64,000 nt of DNA from the IMG/VR virus record IMGVR_UViG_3300026118_000001, positions 1 through 64,000 of that record; one strand, 5' to 3'. The translations under genes were made by a program, and so were the position numbers. The DNA is from a virus. The notes beneath the pieces are model-generated. The model ran no database searches and was not told the DNA's origin. It saw only the letters and a program-made list of their open reading frames with translations. Every line of letters starts with the position of its first letter. Position 1 is the first letter of the stretch. Shown in pieces: positions 4,023-40,658 of this stretch.

Positions 4023-5101
4023 TGAAAACATTATATAAGCGTGATAGTCGTGGAAAGATTAGAATATGGCAAATTTATACTCAAGGAGCTTTATTAATTC
4101 AAGAAAGTGGATTAGAAGATGGTAAATTAGTTAAACATCAAAAGTTTTGTACTCCTAAGAATATTGGTAAATCTAATGGTACAGATTGTAATCAACAAGC
4201 TTTATTAGAAATGGATTCTTTGATTAAACAAAAACTTGATGAAGGTTATTTTGAAACTAAAGAATTAGCTGAAAGTGAAAAAGTAATTCTTCCTATGTTA
4301 GCTAAATCATATGATGATGAAAAGCATAAAATAGATTGGTCTAAAAATGTATTTATTCAGCCTAAATTAGATGGAATGAGATGTTTGGCTCATTGTAAAT
4401 CTAATGGAGATGTAGAATTAGTTTCTAGAGATGGTAAAATTATTGATAGAGATATAATGTTTCATATAATTAAAGATTTATCTAATATTAAGCAAGATAT
4501 TATTTTGGATGGTGAATTATATGCTCATGGATTAAGCTTTCAAGAAAATATGAAACTAATTAAAAAATATAGAAAGGGAGAAACTGAATTAATTAAATAT
4601 CATATCTATGATGTTGTTTTAAATGAGCCTTTTGATCATAGAGCTTCTATTATATATACAATTTCTCAAAGATTGAAATCTATTAATATTGAGTATGTTG
4701 AATCTATTGGAATGAATGATGAAAAAATGTTAATTGATTTTCATAGTGAAAATATATCTGAAGGATATGAAGGATCAATTATTAGACATGGTGATGAAGG
4801 TTATAAAATGAATGGTAGAAGTTCTAATTTATTAAAGTATAAAGACTTTAAAGATATGGATTTATCAATTTTAGATATAACTCCTAATGAAGCTAATCCT
4901 TTACATGGAACTCCTTGGTTTAAATTAAATGATAAACTGTTTAAAGCTGGGTGTAAACTAAGTCATGAAGATAGGGAGGATTTATTAACTAATAAAGATG
5001 AGTATATTGGTAAAATAGCAACTATTAGGTATTTTGAATTAACAGATGAAGGTTTATTACGCTTTCCTGTAATGGTTGGAATTAGAAATGATTTAAATTA
5101 A
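4022..5101 (+). CDS. ATP-dependent DNA ligase
   Basis: Seals nicks in duplex DNA through an enzyme-adenylate intermediate. The adenylation motif KLDGMR begins near residue 115, followed by RDGK (motif Ia), DGELYAHG (motif III), EGSIIRHG (motif IV) and LLKYKDF (motif V), in the normal order for ATP-dependent ligases. A C-terminal OB-fold follows, with VGIRNDLN at the end. The first 85 residues resemble a WGR-type domain with RIWQIYTQGALLIQESGLED, an uncommon addition that could help DNA binding. The gene lies in the replication block, so Okazaki-fragment joining or recombination is the likely role. Confidence 0.92.
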   Translation: MKTLYKRDSRGKIRIWQIYTQGALLIQESGLEDGKLVKHQKFCTPKNIGKSNGTDCNQQALLEMDSLIKQKLDEGYFETKELAESEKVILPMLAKSYDDEKHKIDWSKNVFIQPKLDGMRCLAHCKSNGDVELVSRDGKIIDRDIMFHIIKDLSNIKQDIILDGELYAHGLSFQENMKLIKKYRKGETELIKYHIYDVVLNEPFDHRASIIYTISQRLKSINIEYVESIGMNDEKMLIDFHSENISEGYEGSIIRHGDEGYKMNGRSSNLLKYKDFKDMDLSILDITPNEANPLHGTPWFKLNDKLFKAGCKLSHEDREDLLTNKDEYIGKIATIRYFELTDEGLLRFPVMVGIRNDLN

Positions 5102-5106
5102 TAAAT

Positions 5107-5286
5107 ATGTTAGAAAGAGATTTAAATCCTCCAGAATTTTATTATAAACCTGATAGAAGTGGTTATTGTGATAAATGTTGTGAATTTGATGAATTAAAAG
5201 AAGTAGAAAGAGATTATTGGTTATGTTTTGAATGTAGAGAAGAAGCATGGTTAAATTTACATAATAAAAGTAATAAAGAAGAATAA
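5107..5286 (+). CDS. small zinc-ribbon protein (59 aa)
   Basis: A 59-residue frame from ATG 5107 to TAA 5286 fills the gap between the ligase and the next gene. It contains two CxxC knuckles, CDKC near residue 21 and CFEC near residue 40, the usual layout of a zinc ribbon. The target is unknown. Position and tight spacing support it being a real gene. Confidence 0.65.
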   Translation: MLERDLNPPEFYYKPDRSGYCDKCCEFDELKEVERDYWLCFECREEAWLNLHNKSNKEE

Positions 5287-5288
5287 AT

Positions 5289-5546
5289 ATGACAGAAGAC
5301 GGTAAAGAAGATATATCTTGGATGGCTACTCAGTTAATTAATGATAGAGATATGTCTAAAATTGAAGAACCTAAAGAATTAACAAGAAGTTTTGGTGGTA
5401 AAATTGATGGTTTTATTTCTTCTTTAGAAGAAGCCCATGAAAAAAGACATTTGAAAGCTTATTTAAAAGGAAAGAAGTATTTTAGACATGGATTTTATGA
5501 GAATAAAAAGCCTAGATATTATGATGTAATAGAAAATTGGAAGTAA
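5289..5546 (+). CDS. hypothetical protein (85 aa)
   Basis: Not recognised. It starts two bases after the zinc-ribbon gene. The protein is charged, with a basic C-terminal half (LKGKKYFRHGFYENKKPRYY), and has no membrane or cysteine motif. Confidence 0.6.
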   Translation: MTEDGKEDISWMATQLINDRDMSKIEEPKELTRSFGGKIDGFISSLEEAHEKRHLKAYLKGKKYFRHGFYENKKPRYYDVIENWK

Positions 5547-8986: not shown

Positions 8987-9796
8987 ATGGCATTTAAGAA
9001 AGAAAAAACATTAGTTAGTTTACAATCTCCTAATGAAATTCTAATTTATTCTAAACCTAAAATGGGTAAAACTGATTTAGTTAGTAGAATTGAGGATTGT
9101 GGAATTATAGAATTGGAAGGTGGAGCTAATTATGTTAATGGATATGTTCATAATGTTAATAATTTAAAGGAATTAGATGAATTATTAACTTGGCTTGAGA
9201 AAGAAAATCCATATAAATATCTTGCATTTGATACAATGACTAGATTAGAAGAATGGTGTGAGATTGAAGGTACATTAAATTATATGAATAGTAGTCAAGG
9301 TAAATCATTTAATAGAGTGCTACAAGAACATATTGATAGAGGATTAGCACCACAAGATAAATTAGGAGCTAAATTTCCTCCAGGAAAAGAAGGATTTGAA
9401 TCTGTTCATAGTTTAGGTCAAGGTTATGGTTATAGATGGAGTAGAGAGTCTTATCAAAAATGGTTTCTTAGAATGAAAGCTCTAAAATGTAGAAAAATAT
9501 TTTTAGCTCATATTAAGGATAAATTAATTGAAAGTAAAAATGGAGATCAGGTTGTTGGTAGAGATATTGATTTAACAGGCAAGCTCAAGTCAATAACAAC
9601 TTCATTTGTAGACACAATTGCTTATTTGCATAGAGGATCTGATGGTAATACATATTTAAGTTTTAAAGCTGGAGAAGCTGTAGCTGAAGGTAGTAGAAGT
9701 AAACATCTTACTGGTCAGGATTTAATGATTGGAGAATGGAGTAATGAGAAAAAAGATTATTCAGAAACATTCTGGTCTAAAATATATATTGACTAA
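8987..9796 (+). CDS. RecA-fold ATPase of the Sak4 / AAA_24 type
   Basis: A compact RecA-like NTPase of 269 residues. Walker A is SKPKMGKTDL near residue 22; Walker B is KYLAFDTMTRLEEW; a later strand carries KIFLAHIKDKL. The conserved pattern IIELEGGANYVNGY fits the AAA_24 / Sak4 group, phage recombinases that work with a single-strand-binding protein in annealing-type recombination. An SSB-like gene lies 1.4 kb downstream (11153-11707), which supports that role. The C-terminus does not contain an extra domain. Activity has not been tested and is inferred from family. Confidence 0.75.
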   Translation: MAFKKEKTLVSLQSPNEILIYSKPKMGKTDLVSRIEDCGIIELEGGANYVNGYVHNVNNLKELDELLTWLEKENPYKYLAFDTMTRLEEWCEIEGTLNYMNSSQGKSFNRVLQEHIDRGLAPQDKLGAKFPPGKEGFESVHSLGQGYGYRWSRESYQKWFLRMKALKCRKIFLAHIKDKLIESKNGDQVVGRDIDLTGKLKSITTSFVDTIAYLHRGSDGNTYLSFKAGEAVAEGSRSKHLTGQDLMIGEWSNEKKDYSETFWSKIYID

Positions 9797-18467: not shown

Positions 18468-18977
18468 ATGATTAAATTATTTAAAAATATGAAAACATTA
18501 AAACTAAGTGATGAAAAAGCACTTGAATTATATAAAAATGCAGATCAATCTTTTAAGTGTCTATTAGAAGAAAATTTTGGTAAAGATTTCTTTAAACCTA
18601 AATTAATTACAGATAAAGTTTTTGATATAGAAACTCTTTGTGAATATTTAAATATTGATGAAGATGAGTTATATATTTTTAAAAAGAATACAAAAGACAA
18701 ACATGAAAGATATATAAATGCTTGTAATATTCTTTCTAAAATAGCTCAAGTTTATAATGAAGGTGTAATATTAGATTGGAAAAATAGTAATATTTATAAA
18801 TATTTACCTTATTTAAGCTTTTCTGATTCTGATGGGGGGGTTGTTGAGTTCTGTACTTGGCGCTATTGTTTGTGTGGGTCTGTTGGTCTTTACTATAAAA
18901 CTAATGAATTATCTAAATCTTCTTATAATAATTTTCAATCAATTTGGGAAGATTATTGGGGAATGAAAGCTAATTAA
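18468..18977 (+). CDS. DGR target protein 1, with C-terminal variable region
   Basis: Target of the diversity-generating retroelement. The 169-residue protein may start at the internal ATG 18489 (MKTLKLSDEKALELYKNAD), which looks like the family's usual start. The N-terminal helical part is followed by LDWKNSNIYKYLPYLSF, then the variable region (residues about 117-141), rich here in Gly and with three Cys, and a conserved tail LYYKTNELSKS. It is a paralogue of the target at 20139-20624. Such variable domains are usually ligand-binding and of C-type-lectin-like or similar fold; location of the protein (virion or secreted) cannot be told. Confidence 0.85.
   Translation: MIKLFKNMKTLKLSDEKALELYKNADQSFKCLLEENFGKDFFKPKLITDKVFDIETLCEYLNIDEDELYIFKKNTKDKHERYINACNILSKIAQVYNEGVILDWKNSNIYKYLPYLSFSDSDGGVVEFCTWRYCLCGSVGLYYKTNELSKSSYNNFQSIWEDYWGMKAN
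18817..18890 (+). repeat. DGR variable repeat VR1
   Basis: 74 bases aligned without gaps to TR1 (19004-19077). They differ at 19 positions; 18 are adenines in TR1 (13 A to G, 3 A to T, 2 A to C) and one is a G to A at offset 16. TR1 has 22 adenines in all. The pattern is the signature of adenine-specific mutagenic retrohoming. The region includes a run of seven G (18834-18840) created from the alternating GA run in TR1. Confidence 0.95.
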
Positions 18978-19003
18978 TAATATTAAAGTTGGTACAATAA
19001 TTT

Positions 19004-19077
19004 GCTTTTCTAATTCTAGTGAGAGAGTTGTTGAATTCAATAATTGGAACTATAATTTGAATGAGTCTATTAGTCTT
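19004..19077 (+). repeat. DGR template repeat TR1
   Basis: Invariant template for VR1. Read in the frame of VR1 it would encode six Asn codons (AAT/AAC), the kind of codon that adenine mutagenesis diversifies most without making stops. It begins 26 bases after the stop of target 1 and lies upstream of the reverse transcriptase. The homology with VR1 stops sharply at CTT; downstream the template reads CGC where the variable gene reads TAC, as expected for a differing initiation-of-homing site. Confidence 0.95.
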
Positions 19078-19104
19078 CGCTTATTATATCATATTGTACA
19101 ACTG

Positions 19105-19116
19105 TGGCTATAGCCA
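19105..19116 (+). repeat. short hairpin 27 bases after TR1
   Basis: TGGC-TATA-GCCA, a perfect 12-base palindrome that can form a four-pair hairpin. The copy after TR2 is TAGC-TATT-GCTA at the same distance; the G-C pair is replaced by A-T on both arms. Flanking bases (AAC before, AAAAAAT after) are also shared, so it is likely part of the template RNA. Confidence 0.65.
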
Positions 19117-19198
19117 AAAAATAAATAAAACTTAAAACAGCTTTGGTAAATTATTGAAAAAGATGTTAATAATAAGTAAAAAAGAATAAAATAATTTT

Positions 19199-20149
19199 AT
19201 GAAAAGAGAAGGTTATTTATTTAATAAAATATGTTCAATAGATAATCTTATATTAGCTGAAAAGAAAGCTAGAAGAGGAAAAAGTAAACAAAGTGGTGTA
19301 AAAGAATTTGATTTAGATAGTGAAAATAAATTAATTCATTTACACCATTTATTAGTTAATAAAGAATTTATAACTTCTGAATATAATATATTTAGTTTGT
19401 TTGAAAAGAAAGTAAGAATTATATCAGAATTACCTTATTATCCAGACAGAATTGTGCATCATGCAATTATTAATATTATTGGTGATATATTTATAAAGTC
19501 TTTTACTAAAGATACTTATAGTTGTTTAAAGAATAGAGGTATTCACAAATGTTTGAATAATCTTAATAAAGCTTTAAAAAATAGGGAAGAAACTAAGTAT
19601 TGTTTGAAATTAGATATTAAAAAATATTTTCCTTTAATTAATCATGAGATTTTAAAAGATTTTATTAATAATAAAATTAAAGATGAAAATGTATTACAAT
19701 TATTATATGGAATTATAGATTCAAATAAATTAGGAATTCCTTTAGGAAATTATACTAGTCAATTATTTGGAAATATTTATTCTAACAGTTTACTTCATTA
19801 TTTAAAAGAAGAACTAAAAATTAAACATTTGTTTCTTTATTGTGATGATTTAGTTATTTTAGGGTCTAATAAAGATGAATTAAGAGTTATTTTAAATAAA
19901 ATTAGAATTTATTTAGACATTAATTTAAAACTTAGTCTTTCTAATTATCAAATATTTCCTGTAAAATCTAGAGGAATTGATTTTCTAGGATATGTCAGTT
20001 ATCATGATTGTATTTATTTAAGAAAAAGTATTAAAAATGATTATATTAAAATGATGAAGTATTATCCAAATAAAAAATCTAAAGCCAGTTATAATGGTTG
20101 GTTATTAGCTTGTAATAGTGTAAATTTAAGAAATAAATATGAAAAATGA
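19199..20149 (+). CDS. DGR reverse transcriptase
   Basis: Makes the mutagenised cDNA from the template RNA. Motif A is LKLDIKKYF with Asp near residue 139; the box-4 signature GIPLGNYTSQ (near 178-188) with TSQ rather than QG is characteristic of DGR enzymes; the catalytic box is YCDD near 214-217, where YMDD or YADD is more usual. The C-terminal ASYNGWLLACNSVNL is the family's SYxGWL tail. At 316 residues it is a compact, apparently complete enzyme. No gene resembling the accessory protein Avd was recognised nearby. The TR/VR pairs on either side confirm the type. Confidence 0.93.
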   Translation: MKREGYLFNKICSIDNLILAEKKARRGKSKQSGVKEFDLDSENKLIHLHHLLVNKEFITSEYNIFSLFEKKVRIISELPYYPDRIVHHAIINIIGDIFIKSFTKDTYSCLKNRGIHKCLNNLNKALKNREETKYCLKLDIKKYFPLINHEILKDFINNKIKDENVLQLLYGIIDSNKLGIPLGNYTSQLFGNIYSNSLLHYLKEELKIKHLFLYCDDLVILGSNKDELRVILNKIRIYLDINLKLSLSNYQIFPVKSRGIDFLGYVSYHDCIYLRKSIKNDYIKMMKYYPNKKSKASYNGWLLACNSVNLRNKYEK

Positions 20150-20624
20150 TAATATAATTGAAATGCTTGAATCAAATGATAAAGACTGTGTTTATTTGGC
20201 TGTTTCAATGATTAGAAATTATTCTACATTACTATCTGTTGAAACTAAAAAATCTTTAAATAAAGTTTCTTTATTTGATAGAATTAAAAATTATTCAGAT
20301 GTTTGTAAAGATTTGGAGGAGGATGAATTAAAACTTTCTAATTTTAATTTTCTTTCAAAAGATTATAGAAAGAAAGCTTTTAATCAAGCTAAATTGCAAC
20401 AAATACAAAAATTATTTAATGGTGATTGGAAATTAGATTGGTCAGATATAACTCAATATAAATGGTTTCCTTATTTTGAAATAAAGGTTTCTGGTGGTAT
20501 TGGCTTTTATGTTTCTTATTTTCATACTTCTACTTTCGGTGATGCTCCTGCCTATTTTAAAGATGAAGAAACTTCAAATTTTGTAGGAAAATTATTTATA
20601 GATATTTATAAAGAATTAATGTAA
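20139..20624 (+). CDS. DGR target protein 2, with C-terminal variable region
   Basis: Second target of the retroelement, 161 residues, overlapping the RT gene by 11 bases. It shares with target 1 the order helical N-terminus, FDRIKNYSDVCKDL, then KLDWSDITQYKWFPYFEI (target 1: LDWKNSNIYKYLPYLSF), variable region (residues about 117-138) and tail AYFKDEETSNFVGKLF. Unlike target 1 its variable region has no Cys and is rich in aromatic and small residues. It probably binds a variable ligand; the role in the phage is unknown. Confidence 0.85.
   Translation: MKNDNIIEMLESNDKDCVYLAVSMIRNYSTLLSVETKKSLNKVSLFDRIKNYSDVCKDLEEDELKLSNFNFLSKDYRKKAFNQAKLQQIQKLFNGDWKLDWSDITQYKWFPYFEIKVSGGIGFYVSYFHTSTFGDAPAYFKDEETSNFVGKLFIDIYKELM
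20486..20553 (+). repeat. DGR variable repeat VR2
   Basis: 68 bases aligned without gaps to TR2 (20651-20718). They differ at 15 positions, all adenines in TR2 (7 A to G, 5 A to T, 3 A to C). None of the 46 non-adenine positions differs. TR2 has 22 adenines in the aligned span. Confidence 0.95.
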
Positions 20625-20650
20625 TATTAATAAGGTTGAATATTAAATTT

Positions 20651-20718
20651 AGTTTCTAGTAGTATTAGCTTTAATGATTCTAATTATCATAATTCTAATT
20701 TCAATGATGAACCTACCT
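20651..20718 (+). repeat. DGR template repeat TR2
   Basis: Separate template for VR2, 26 bases after the stop of target 2, the same distance as TR1 from target 1. In the frame of VR2 it encodes five AAT Asn codons. It is unlike TR1 in sequence, so each target is served by its own template. The 26-base leaders of the two templates resemble each other (AAGTTG...AATTT and AGGTTG...AATTT). Confidence 0.95.
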
Positions 20719-20745
20719 CTTACTTAATAATCATAATATTAACCG

Positions 20746-20757
20746 TAGCTATTGCTA
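20746..20757 (+). repeat. short hairpin 27 bases after TR2
   Basis: TAGC-TATT-GCTA, matching the hairpin after TR1 in position and flanks, with a compensatory pair change. See the TR1 hairpin entry. Confidence 0.65.
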
Positions 20758-20833
20758 AAAAATTAAATAATTTAAAAACTATATTAGTACCTTTATTGTG
20801 GAAAGTTTGGTAATTAAAGTAATATTAAAACAT

Positions 20834-20980
20834 TAGCTTCTAGGCCAGAAGATCGAAACTCTTGAAACGCTTAATTATTAAAACGTACCAGTTTATCATG
20901 GAAATTGATAGAACGTAAGTAATAATATTTCAACTAGAACGTTAGCTAGACTGTTTATGGTTATCAGTGAGTAAAACCAT
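20834..20980 (+). ncRNA. candidate structured RNA downstream of TR2
   Basis: A long-range stem pairs TAGC 20834-20837 and TTCTAG 20838-20843 with CTAGAA 20934-20939 and GCTA 20945-20948 (a 5-base bulge between). Inside are a hairpin AAGA 20849-20852 / TCTT 20860-20863 and a two-part hairpin ACGT 20883-20886 with TATCA 20894-20898 / TGATA 20906-20910 and ACGT 20913-20916. A further hairpin ATGGTT 20957-20962 / AACCAT 20975-20980 follows. The base composition is less AT-rich than the surroundings. The function is unknown; it could belong to the template RNA or be a separate RNA. Confidence 0.45.
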
Positions 20981-21002
20981 TTATAATTAAATAATAAATA
21001 TA

Positions 21003-39100: not shown

Positions 39101-40658
39101 TTGGATAACCAGCTACTTTTTTAAATTCTTCTTCTGATAGTCCTTTTAAATCTTCATATTGAGAAATTAATAATTCTGTAGCATTATTATCAATGAATTG
39201 TTTAGCAATTGATTTATTTTGATTGAATTCAGCATTCAAATAATCAAATTTACTATTATTAATTAATGCTTCAGTTTTTTCTTTCTCATAATTTGTTGCT
39301 CTAACAAAATTAGAAAATGTATTTATAGTTTTTTTAACTTCAGGATTATTTAATAATTCTGCTGCTTTTTGTGTAGCTTGATTCTGTGCACTTATCTCTC
39401 CTTTAGCTTGGATAACACTAGTAGGCCCCCCCATTAATGCACCTAAGAAGAAATTTTCAAGTCCTTCTTCAGTTCCTAATGTTTGTTTAAATCCTTCAAC
39501 TAAGGATTCAATCATTCCATGTTGATCTTTTTTATCTTTAAATCCTTGAGAATAATAATCTGTTAATGTTTTTTGTGTTAATAATTGACCAAGTTCTTGA
39601 GATCCTTCTTCTAGTGAACCTTTAAGTCCTTCTGTAGAAACTTCTCTTAATATTCCTTTAGTTTCTGGAATATATTTTCCATTAACTAATTCAATATCAT
39701 TTAGTTTTAATTTGTTAGCTTTAAATCCTTGAGAAAGTAGTTTTGGAAATAATAAAGCATTTGTAGTTCCTGTAATAGCTAAATTAGAAGCATAACCCCA
39801 ATTACCAGCAGCCTTAGAAGCATCATCTATTTGTTTAAGTACTTCATCATTTGGCTCTTCACCATTATGTTTATCTTTATAATCTAATATTAATTGATCT
39901 TTTGTATCATTATAGATTTGTCTAGATTCAATAGCAGATTCACCATGTGACATTAATGCAGCATTCTTACTAAAATCAACAGCATTAGCTATTTTAATTC
40001 CTCTTGAAGCATCATCTAGTGCTACTAGTCCTTCAGTTGCTAATGTAGTTTCATTTATTAATTTTCCAGATTTAGCTAATTTAGCTAAACTTGCATATTT
40101 ATTTAATCCCCAACCAGTAGCAATTGCAGCACCCATATAAGCTGCTCCAGATAATGCTTGTTCAGACCAGAAATTAGCTGTTCCAAGTTTTTGAGCTAAA
40201 TTATAATCTTCTTCTGCTTTAGTATGATAATTAGGCATAGCTTTAGCTATGTAATCATTCATTTCATCTAAAGAATCAGTAAAATCATTTTTATATAATC
40301 TATTAATATCTTCATTATGAATAGCAGAACCAATACCATATAATAACCCTCCAGTATTTTCTAATATAGAACTTCCAGCAATTCCTGCTGCTTTAGTTAT
40401 ACCATTAGCCCATTTATCTGTTAATGGTTGTCTTTGTGCTCTAATTTCACCTAACTGACTTACATTTTCAGGTGTTACACCTTCATCATATTTAGATTCT
40501 CCAACACCATATTGACCTAATTGAATATCTCTACTTTGAGGAGTTTTTTGTAATTCCTCATTTATTAAACTATGTAAAGATAAATTTGATGTTTGTGTTA
40601 GTTGTTCTGTAGCTTTCTTATTTTCTTGTATTAATTTTCTTAAATCAAGTCTTCCCAT
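30156..40658 (-). CDS. giant virion RNA polymerase polyprotein (3500 aa)
   Basis: Predicted to be packaged in the capsid and injected to transcribe phage genes. The metal-binding motif DFDND (Asp 2590, 2592, 2594; within GSDFDNDKLY) matches the DFDxD signature of crAss-like virion RNA polymerases. Other parts: an N-terminal region of about 450 residues with small hydrophobic helices (GAAYMGAAIATGWGLNKY), as in ejected internal proteins; a zincin motif HEAFH at 1274-1278; and a histidine-phosphatase-like domain at about 3256-3420 with EHGED where RHGE is normal. At 3500 residues it is longer than the single-chain polymerase known from phage phi14:2 (about 2200). Confidence 0.8.
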   Translation of the reverse strand: MGRLDLRKLIQENKKATEQLTQTSNLSLHSLINEELQKTPQSRDIQLGQYGVGESKYDEGVTPENVSQLGEIRAQRQPLTDKWANGITKAAGIAGSSILENTGGLLYGIGSAIHNEDINRLYKNDFTDSLDEMNDYIAKAMPNYHTKAEEDYNLAQKLGTANFWSEQALSGAAYMGAAIATGWGLNKYASLAKLAKSGKLINETTLATEGLVALDDASRGIKIANAVDFSKNAALMSHGESAIESRQIYNDTKDQLILDYKDKHNGEEPNDEVLKQIDDASKAAGNWGYASNLAITGTTNALLFPKLLSQGFKANKLKLNDIELVNGKYIPETKGILREVSTEGLKGSLEEGSQELGQLLTQKTLTDYYSQGFKDKKDQHGMIESLVEGFKQTLGTEEGLENFFLGALMGGPTSVIQAKGEISAQNQATQKAAELLNNPEVKKTINTFSNFVRATNYEKEKTEALINNSKFDYLNAEFNQNKSIAKQFIDNNATELLISQYEDLKGLSEEEFKKVAGYPIEKPLPHSKEQIINDAISLVKTLDKTNNSIHELFPYKQEVYESPEKYNTLTTNLWHYSTSISNIDKRVKQIHSDIYKIAAENDATITGLGTPESPFTVDGNPMVAQQVNQANKDLHLAKLYKDKLIESYNLLADPKTQKKTLNDIIDTSEEESKESNIVEEIPLPKVTDEPLISKSKASKEIQDFVQKIMDTESLTDPKDLQFYENNKAEIEKELKFQTTPQSTKVDNEPIISNVESPTTINEDPLFINKEFILDDSNDVGRKANTPFKTNGGIDNGQKPSEDRYFKTTETIVLDEHKLLVVTKATNPELYSQILDNDPTAKEYEKKHPDFKGVWTILVDKENNPVLEEDKFIQSTLETAQRISDNKIDIGRGLSKEDKSKAKEKAIKDLNSLRDEILLLKNNDVKYLPIIGKSNGLMIETDENANIIHSAFEDKINGERQSNNLLGRIFDKNIKYDEIPLTLPTFNLIFNNIKVLPGKLYTKDGNRRIFDLIPRNLNVDEASLIIDLINKKLNTKEKDLDFDPIDEIKKITTFFKSNKPSDIYINSDGRLVFDNNELTKEEIESNRSKIIDFLLTKKVNVNNKYIKGESFTKPDINGRGENVHYNEYLLSGEVPMFGTDLKPIVDLNGRPNRRFIQSYFIYDNKLIENKLKEKVDLETSERIEDNTSPIITEEIKPIKKEFKKRSGDKVLDRLKKRNQDRNKLSQEEINWFKERFPNIPINFIQGLIEQKSLGQFLSSGEVLLSDEATIGTLHHEAFHVITQLYLTKEEIDKLYNEASKKYSNKSRKELEEILAEDFVSYKLGGKVLNNSPQRNTIFRRILSFLKDLLGISSTNIQQVYERLDKGYYTNKKLVNTKEFSSLNRDENTKRITNEKGTKFVKDVLDGIDILFFDYIFDNGRTPVIANSHVNKITDKIHDIIDDKYQNSVDEKQIKDYEYILENWDDIINMWKTRININGVEIVTKIENNIEEIKNEDEELSKDEQLDEHSSKGDYSEGNLTSTLESISSPVRLLIRSLKQVNITNDLGFSIPVDFTSTYNYLLKNLAGTGNNYSDIYNKIESLIEFKPEFQELIDRLGAPSSDISVEQFRFQTQFTQDFNKNRYNAIVTIYEPNGNIIPVDTNRQNEAEKVKTIWEANLLLHTKQDEKGKLIINKDVINEKDPFVFLDKLGIIFDKNTQKIINDKDFNLNDLNDSVAAIKIYIDKKNGDVTNLYNSGKEEDGIAGRINYLLTLEANNTSLVNELSYMSTEGKTVYSVSDNNALSITTNIINNVNSIEELFLKLPHLNTVGAENSFWLNELFNPKTGLRNKNIKLNLELHDGVASSKESEDVSKISTRKGTKGDLFTQNIASILNGKSNYIVSADKSQEFVLGLSNKLPVSIELLKSGFNTIKLKEIFRGYFKSEFKGIALFKLDGIGTNVDGYSKNGSDFTIFNEILLKSSKVNIKEILKSKLDDLKFKEVKYNESKEELDELVNSLLPDLDKLVIDFFESYSRQLNNSLKENNINEFGIPKEYTDKYPKEQLIRAIVVTDFINSIEQTKLFIGNLAFYKDLYKRTAMFAGTKLIPRVDEETNDFLNKNFIRSDNKLADGNENSIVYNDVTTTKDIKELVDTYIKSGVSEEAAYNILGYEKTESEEFKGISAYGKADEGDAQGWGSLDFIREFHNRVGTWTNKMENAYQIIQKQKFDNEGNLIEGKLLTKDELTYFQTLKLQYAGPINHGSTQQLFVPGGYKFTIMPLIPQMVAGKNLSKLLENMKSNKSGIALFKSASKFGTILNKDGKANPFYTNNNHGEINNADLVIQSISYNYLGLQVKPSPPKDKYIFSTQFRKTMLINAFENGKETFEGAEKLLSTFSNLIEEKTKIEKDKLIKELGINPDTYVAEDVTKLVDMLVEYSENRKLTDNIINSLDIEEKEGKKVLKYNIDSMVNKTKLDSVLMSIIDARLIKQKYNGDAYVLGTVAGMEKLGNRPIGSNNALRGYTKDTSGNTLPAEVMIPLSESYYPLLKKFGSLKAVNEAIKNGDIPNKVLELVGCRIPGQGMNSNEYLTIKEFLPEDAATTMIVHPDIVAKAGSDFDNDKLYTYRPNLDENGNYIEDNIDNKTIQVIKDFISNPHNFISLITPNSTSIISPIVDDIKYIDYLNDKTEANNELISKGREPKKILTKEEYFEAQNSKDKKINYTALLKLQNKINARYKLWLAKDEVGLSAIANAYGPLSQLSGLTANKSYINAAGEEIKVNINLIHNEIRDVFNLGALKDAENNHNISEINNQLINIIVDAAKDEIPMVSYLNMTMDTLPIYLYLNKLGVPFEHIANFMTQPIILDYIEEINKNKSIFLKSTGKNQRNTEITKQIKKKYSNLVSEKDIENKILSLKELKDFKLIENQSTKEFELFQLQVFNDFLKYKEQASLFNDAVRVTNSDTAGLGQNINSSRLKLEEINKVQKTNFINGVNEIINKTFIKSFQQDEFAISSYKQFYDTQKEEIINNILGLANELENPFKSSRKEKLKMINLIENDFINFVIQNYGYKNINAIRKRLFEGENSVAKKLLELKNKKEENLNEDEKQLRNNILIKELFPLIDKAALNYDNVKIFTKKLDTFTSNQLTEAFRELKNSNLSLGNELIHVGILQSGLNNSPITYLGIIPFEYYNQLVKDSFEEFNKKNGAEILPKFNELFIRNNNKIVPTIFKNLQLSALGNGMYGKDYDVNKATKGFNVKYIPITTPLKITIENISPKVEPVKVGNLIVFEHGEDVPSSKDVINGQSDTNLTKEGKEQASNLGKELKIQGITSLITSPIERVIQTAEIIKKEQNIPYYTDENLKTMNMGNWEGEVKENEYDEKLWSNPINEEEKINPKAESFKQFRERALKAWNIIKKLDDKNVAILTSSKMIKMFNAYNQTNGIWNEEARNIYLSNEINKEENKLPIQEKITNIGEKFELSKEQYNELKSDIEFLFEFQPQLKEELLKELNEVHDDESLGKLIEKKCK

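Follow-up and report, generated by a model that had tools for sequence, protein, structure and literature searches.

The diversity-generating retroelement (DGR) described here lies in a 64,000-nucleotide stretch (the window; positions 1 to 64,000) of the 89,726-base viral record IMGVR_UViG_3300026118_000001. It consists of a single gene for a reverse transcriptase (RT) flanked by two small target genes, each of which contains a variable repeat (VR) and is followed by a template repeat (TR) and a conserved RNA element, referred to below as the handle. Its features, all on the + strand, are as follows.

18468..18977, +, target gene 1 (T1), an ORF for a small DGR target of 169 aa, predicted to be non-lectin; paralogue of T2 and orthologue of T1 in the related locus L019
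18817..18890, +, VR1, the variable repeat of T1, spanning residues 117-141; TR1 adenines account for 18 of 19 mismatches
18984..19103, +, stem enclosing TR1 (limits approximate); upstream GTTGgTACAATA pairs with downstream TATTGTACAAC
19004..19077, +, TR1, template repeat 1, non-coding; one base differs in the related locus L002
19091..19178, +, RNA handle of TR1, two hairpins, RT-17-like; covariance model R1, 37.5 bits, E 5.5e-7 in 4 kb
19199..20149, +, DGR reverse transcriptase, 316 aa; Pfam RVT_1, phrog_1423, intact motifs
20139..20624, +, target gene 2 (T2), an ORF of 161 aa whose first 11 nt overlap the end of the RT gene
20486..20553, +, VR2, the variable repeat of T2, spanning residues 117-139; TR2 adenines account for 15 of 15 mismatches
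20635..20744, +, stem enclosing TR2 (limits approximate); upstream GGTTgAATATTA pairs with downstream TAATATTAACC
20651..20718, +, TR2, template repeat 2, non-coding; one base differs in L002, a change common to VR2
20733..20821, +, RNA handle of TR2, two hairpins, RT-17-like; ranked second by R1 in 4 kb (21.3 bits, E 0.0016)

The gene order, target 1, TR1, RT, target 2 and TR2, is the one given in the original prediction. The DGR itself was confirmed as well, although the end assigned to it (span 18468-20757) falls inside the TR2 handle, which reaches ~20821. Both VRs are located inside the ORFs of T1 and T2, and both TRs are found between listed ORFs, near the RT gene. The non-coding stretch 3' of the TR2 handle (20822-20992) is conserved in L002 and showed neither an unusual fold nor a convincing Rfam match. 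In L002, the TR2 region is separated from the next gene that the two share by additional sequence (L002:5124-5340), which includes an ORF-like stretch and is missing from the window.

The record is a crAss-like phage, as had been predicted: the best relatives of its large terminase (TerL) are those of crAss-like phages (~35% identity), and PHROG matches to the portal, terminase and major head protein families agree with this assignment, i.e. the record carries the TerL, portal and major capsid protein by which Crassvirales are tested. The + strand block that holds the DGR also contains replication and nucleotide-metabolism genes (gene roles in this block were read from the sequences, with profiles for only some of them), and the structural genes are on the - strand.

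The RT has profile scores of 1.8e-15 for Pfam RVT_1 and 1.6e-94 for phrog_1423, and its GxxxSQ (as GNYTSQ) and YCDD (YxDD) motifs are intact in the alignment. It is the only DGR-type RT in the 89.7-kb record, in line with the earlier claim that one enzyme serves both targets. In 73 of the loci surveyed, a gene of 98-101 aa overlaps or abuts the 3' end of the RT gene (e.g. L073:4950-5243); it matches phrog_19665 and no Pfam family and is a candidate accessory protein. This gene is absent from the window and from L002, L004, L005, L009, L019 and L056.

Comparison of VR1 with TR1 (offset 187) shows 19 mismatches, of which 18 fall at the 22 TR adenines and one is a G>A change (hypergeometric p 1.8e-12), whereas all 15 mismatches between VR2 and TR2 (offset 165) are at TR adenines; with the VR2/TR2 frame shifted by one base (20487-20554), 14 of 15 mismatches are at A (p 1.2e-8). 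These counts are exactly those of the original prediction. In a log-odds scan the two pairs scored 95.2 and 94.6 bits, compared with 24.0 bits for the best codon-shuffled control and 26.5 bits for the best other real pair in the region. The two templates are unlike each other and cognate, as proposed: on both strands of the 89,726 bases TR1 matches only itself and VR1, TR2 matches only itself and VR2, and there is no third VR for either TR. Both repeat pairs are real and of the DGR type.

T1 and T2 had been described as paralogous, which is borne out by their 25% identity (BLASTP 5e-8). The VRs end 28 (T1) and 22 (T2) residues before the C terminus. In the AlphaFold model of T2 (pLDDT 92.3, pTM 0.86), the predicted fold comprises N-terminal helices, a beta hairpin that bears the VR, and C-terminal helices. 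A search of the PDB with this model produced no match (best E 0.51), nor did a PDB search with a second member of the target family. Structural matches of the family in BFVD are uncharacterised phage proteins, several of them from crAss-like phages; phrog_11581 covers the family in part, and Pfam and NCBIfam hold no name for it. The C-type lectin or Ig-like domain that is typical of DGR targets, though not required, is absent from the T2 model. The target fold is confidently predicted by modelling to be unlike the C-type lectin and unlike solved structures.

The RNA 3' of the TR was modelled from single-template relatives, with no two-template locus in the training set of the covariance model R1. 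In the 54 relatives used, pairing in the handle hairpins is 93.6% and double-change cells number 155, compared with 40+/-5 in shuffled alignments, and the stem enclosing the TR is 93.2% paired, with 111 such cells against 33+/-9. The R1 model matches both templates in all complete two-template loci (the window, L002, L004, L043 and L079). In the remaining 77 loci of the survey, which include the 54 of the training set, it has exactly one match apiece. In 4 kb of the window the handles of TR1 and TR2 are the top two matches, and the handles of the two-template loci keep compensatory changes in an alignment fitted to the model. Since single-sequence folding of either handle was no better than that of shuffles, the handle structure rests on comparison and covariation. 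Second matches of the RNA model in cr10_1 (72173-72227) and LMMB (9158-9250) have no VR/TR pair and were treated as chance.

The handle is related to the RT-17 RNA (Rfam RF03020), which matches at the 3' handle of both window templates. Rfam searches at gathering thresholds found nothing in the window, but RT-17 matches below gathering (40.4 bits) fall at exactly the two expected places, with 22.4 bits for the TR1 handle and 25.7 bits (E 0.06 over 3 kb) for the TR2 handle, and in L073 the RT-17 match exceeds gathering (41.4 bits). The TR2 handle scores low with both models. RT-17 covers only the 3' part of the element, to which we add the stem around the TR and the occurrence of two copies per RT. 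Directly 3' of the TR2 handle of L004 (L004:7580-7971) there is a tmRNA-like match (28.7 bits, E 7.6e-8, below gathering) that was not called by ARAGORN.

Variation between strains could be followed in one relative, L002, which is 96.5% identical to the window over the DGR region (L003 is identical to it over 6,759 bases). With the comparison placed by a fixed offset from the alignment, L002 differs from the window at 13 positions in VR1, seven in VR2 and one in each TR. Eleven of the 13 differences in VR1 are at TR-A positions, and in the two VRs together positions that face a template A differ in 15 of 44 cases, compared with 5 of 98 elsewhere (p 1.5e-5). The expected signature of an active DGR, variation of the VRs at TR adenines with the TRs stable, was found in this one relative. 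VR1 carries most of the signal; for VR2 alone the adenine bias is weak (4/22 vs 3/46). The single change in TR2 of L002, a non-adenine one (20705 T>C), recurs at the corresponding VR2 position of the same relative (20540 T>C), which provides evidence of template-to-target transfer in pair 2, as retrohoming predicts. The VRs of L002 have three non-A mismatches to their own TRs.

The ~80 RT relatives in IMG/VR usually have a single TR before the RT and one to three tandem small targets upstream. The two-pair layout around the RT recurs in another phage, L004, whose RT is 63% identical and which has unlike TR sequences; non-A mismatches are absent from both of its pairs. L043 and L079 also have two pairs, in another form, in which a small target has its own TR and a 451-aa target has a second TR before the RT. 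L019 shows the gene order of the window, with the contig stopping inside target 2. In the target tree, T2 of the window, L004 and L019 are grouped (support 100/98), which makes the second target an old one that has been kept; T1 of the window and L019 are likewise grouped (100/99), and T1 of L004 could not be placed with T1 of the window. L005 and L056 have a second target 3' of the RT and one shared TR. In L005, a very large viral record (362,102 bases), two small targets flank the RT, an arrangement that is possibly an intermediate toward the two-template layout.

Small proteins of the same target family are also encoded far from the DGR in five published crAss-like phages, where each carries a VR of 63-65 bases that corresponds to the only TR, that of the tail-fibre DGR. 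In cr52_1, cr53_1, cr56_1, cr60_1 and cr115_1, 12/12, 12/12, 15/15, 14/16 and 16/16 of the VR mismatches, respectively, are at template A. These remote second DGR targets are located at:

NC_055888.1 83524-83928, published gut crAss-like phage (L120, L132-L135 set)
NC_055891.1 14118-14525, published gut crAss-like phage (same set)
NC_055890.1 ~5082-5405, published gut crAss-like phage (same set)
NC_055889.1 ~97107-97472, published gut crAss-like phage (same set)
NC_055898.1 ~39866-40225, published gut crAss-like phage (same set)

In the two of the five phages whose annotation was read, the remote gene is labelled hypothetical and lies near a tmRNA. We found no mention of these remote VRs in the literature searched, which does not prove their absence from it. 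Together with the early-block position of the window DGR, the remote targets suggest a non-structural role of the target family.

We consider it very probable that two template RNAs programme a single RT, each directing the rewriting of a different small target; the repeats, their adenine specificity, the shared handle, the recurrence of the layout and the variation between strains are the directly observed parts of this explanation. A template RNA would consist of the TR enclosed by its stem and then the conserved two-hairpin handle. From sequence comparison, we infer that the handle is the element recognized by the RT and that it was duplicated together with target and template. The RT would copy the TR into cDNA with errors at adenines, and each cDNA would replace only the homologous VR (TR1 to VR1, TR2 to VR2). 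With the same conserved RNA tail on both templates, one enzyme could use both. The cassette of target, TR and handle was probably duplicated across the RT gene and later diverged, so that two small targets would be diversified independently.

It is unlikely that only one pair is live and the other is a relic of cassette duplication or recombination. Two of the three pairs in Lera-type zeta crAss-like phages are suspected relics (PMC12386605), and the weak strain-to-strain bias of VR2 alone and the score of the TR2 handle, which is below that of TR1, fit such a reading; however, relic pairs accumulate non-A mismatches, of which VR2/TR2 of the window and both pairs of L004 are free, the T>C change in TR2 of L002 also appears in its VR2, and compensatory pairs are kept in both handles. 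We give still less credence to two overlapping DGRs, with the second template served not by the RT at 19199-20149 but by another one, elsewhere in the phage or in the host: both templates bear the handle found with this RT clade in 77 of 77 loci that have a single handle, and L004, L043 and L079 each have one RT, in the stretches read, and two handles. As the completeness of this metagenomic contig is unproven, an RT could lie outside it, but its 89.7 kb contain just one. That the pairs might stem from ordinary divergence of repeats in paralogous genes, with no DGR involved, is hardly credible. The targets are indeed paralogous and chance repeats do occur in an AT-rich genome, yet the mismatches are one-sided, at template adenines, the scores reach ~95 bits, whereas shuffled controls do not exceed 24, an RT adjoins the repeats and the pattern recurs in ~80 loci. 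Chance or gene-conversion repeats were ruled out by the adenine asymmetry and the score.

The DGR of Bordetella phage BPP-1 (bRT, Avd, Mtd) combines a single TR and Avd with one tail-fibre target, a C-type lectin. Its RT is homologous to that of the window (35.5% identity over 87%) and the adenine-specific transfer from TR to VR is common to both, whereas the window has two TRs and two small, predicted non-lectin targets, and the genes and ORFs neighbouring its DGR showed no Avd. The zeta crAss-like phages Lera and ct1yV3 resemble the window in being crAss-like and in having several TR-VR pairs per RT; in these phages one RT (399 aa, only distantly related to other crAss RTs) is combined with three TR-VR pairs, of which only TR1-VR1 is adenine-only, the targets are C-type-lectin tail fibres and Avd is present (PMC12386605). 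Other crAss-like DGRs (LMMB, PMC7290462; epsilon, PMC11054128; cr52_1 to cr115_1) are similar to that of the window in the RT (44-49%) and have the same handle, but they have one TR beside a tail-fibre target, whereas the window targets are in the early block. Quimbyviridae likewise have a DGR target that is encoded apart from the structural module, on the other strand; the targets contain C-type lectin domains, unlike those of the window (PMC8008677).

Bacterial DGRs with more than one TR are likewise on record. In the available portions of Yan 2019 (PMC6642488), several VRs were reported for 271 of 948 DGRs, 79.9% of the 271 with only one TR, which leaves ~55 with more; the DGR of Stenotrophomonas sp. 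SKA14 has two TRs and six VRs. The targets in those multi-TR systems are mostly DUF1566 proteins, and the same portions of the paper do not describe cognate target-TR-handle cassettes flanking the RT. Prior counts of multi-TR DGRs rest, as cited here, on these portions and on PMC12386605. The layout that the original prediction called notable holds, but its novelty was somewhat overstated: because multi-TR DGRs have been published, including those of zeta crAss-like phages, the arrangement is a variation on known DGRs and not a new kind. DGRs with several TRs (the same two sources) and a non-structural DGR target, in Quimbyviridae (PMC8008677), were already known; what appears to be new is the clean, recurrent pair of cognate target, TR and handle cassettes on one RT, the equality of handle and template counts, and the target fold.

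The common handle on two unlike templates suggests that template choice by the RT depends on a separable RNA tag and target choice on homology. If this is true, DGRs would be extendable by cassette duplication, and an extra cassette should suffice to supply the RT with an additional target. Because the layout recurs in divergent phages, selection seems to favour two variable proteins that are independent of each other. A further reading, possible but doubtful, is that the handle is a portable address that makes any cassette of target, TR and handle a client of the resident RT, that the two cassettes are independent programmes for small non-structural, non-lectin early proteins, and that the DGR may diversify not just receptor binding but also an intracellular repertoire, e.g. 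one directed at host factors. With its predicted fold unlike solved structures and its position in the early block, the target family offers a testable case for the diversification of more than tail fibres.
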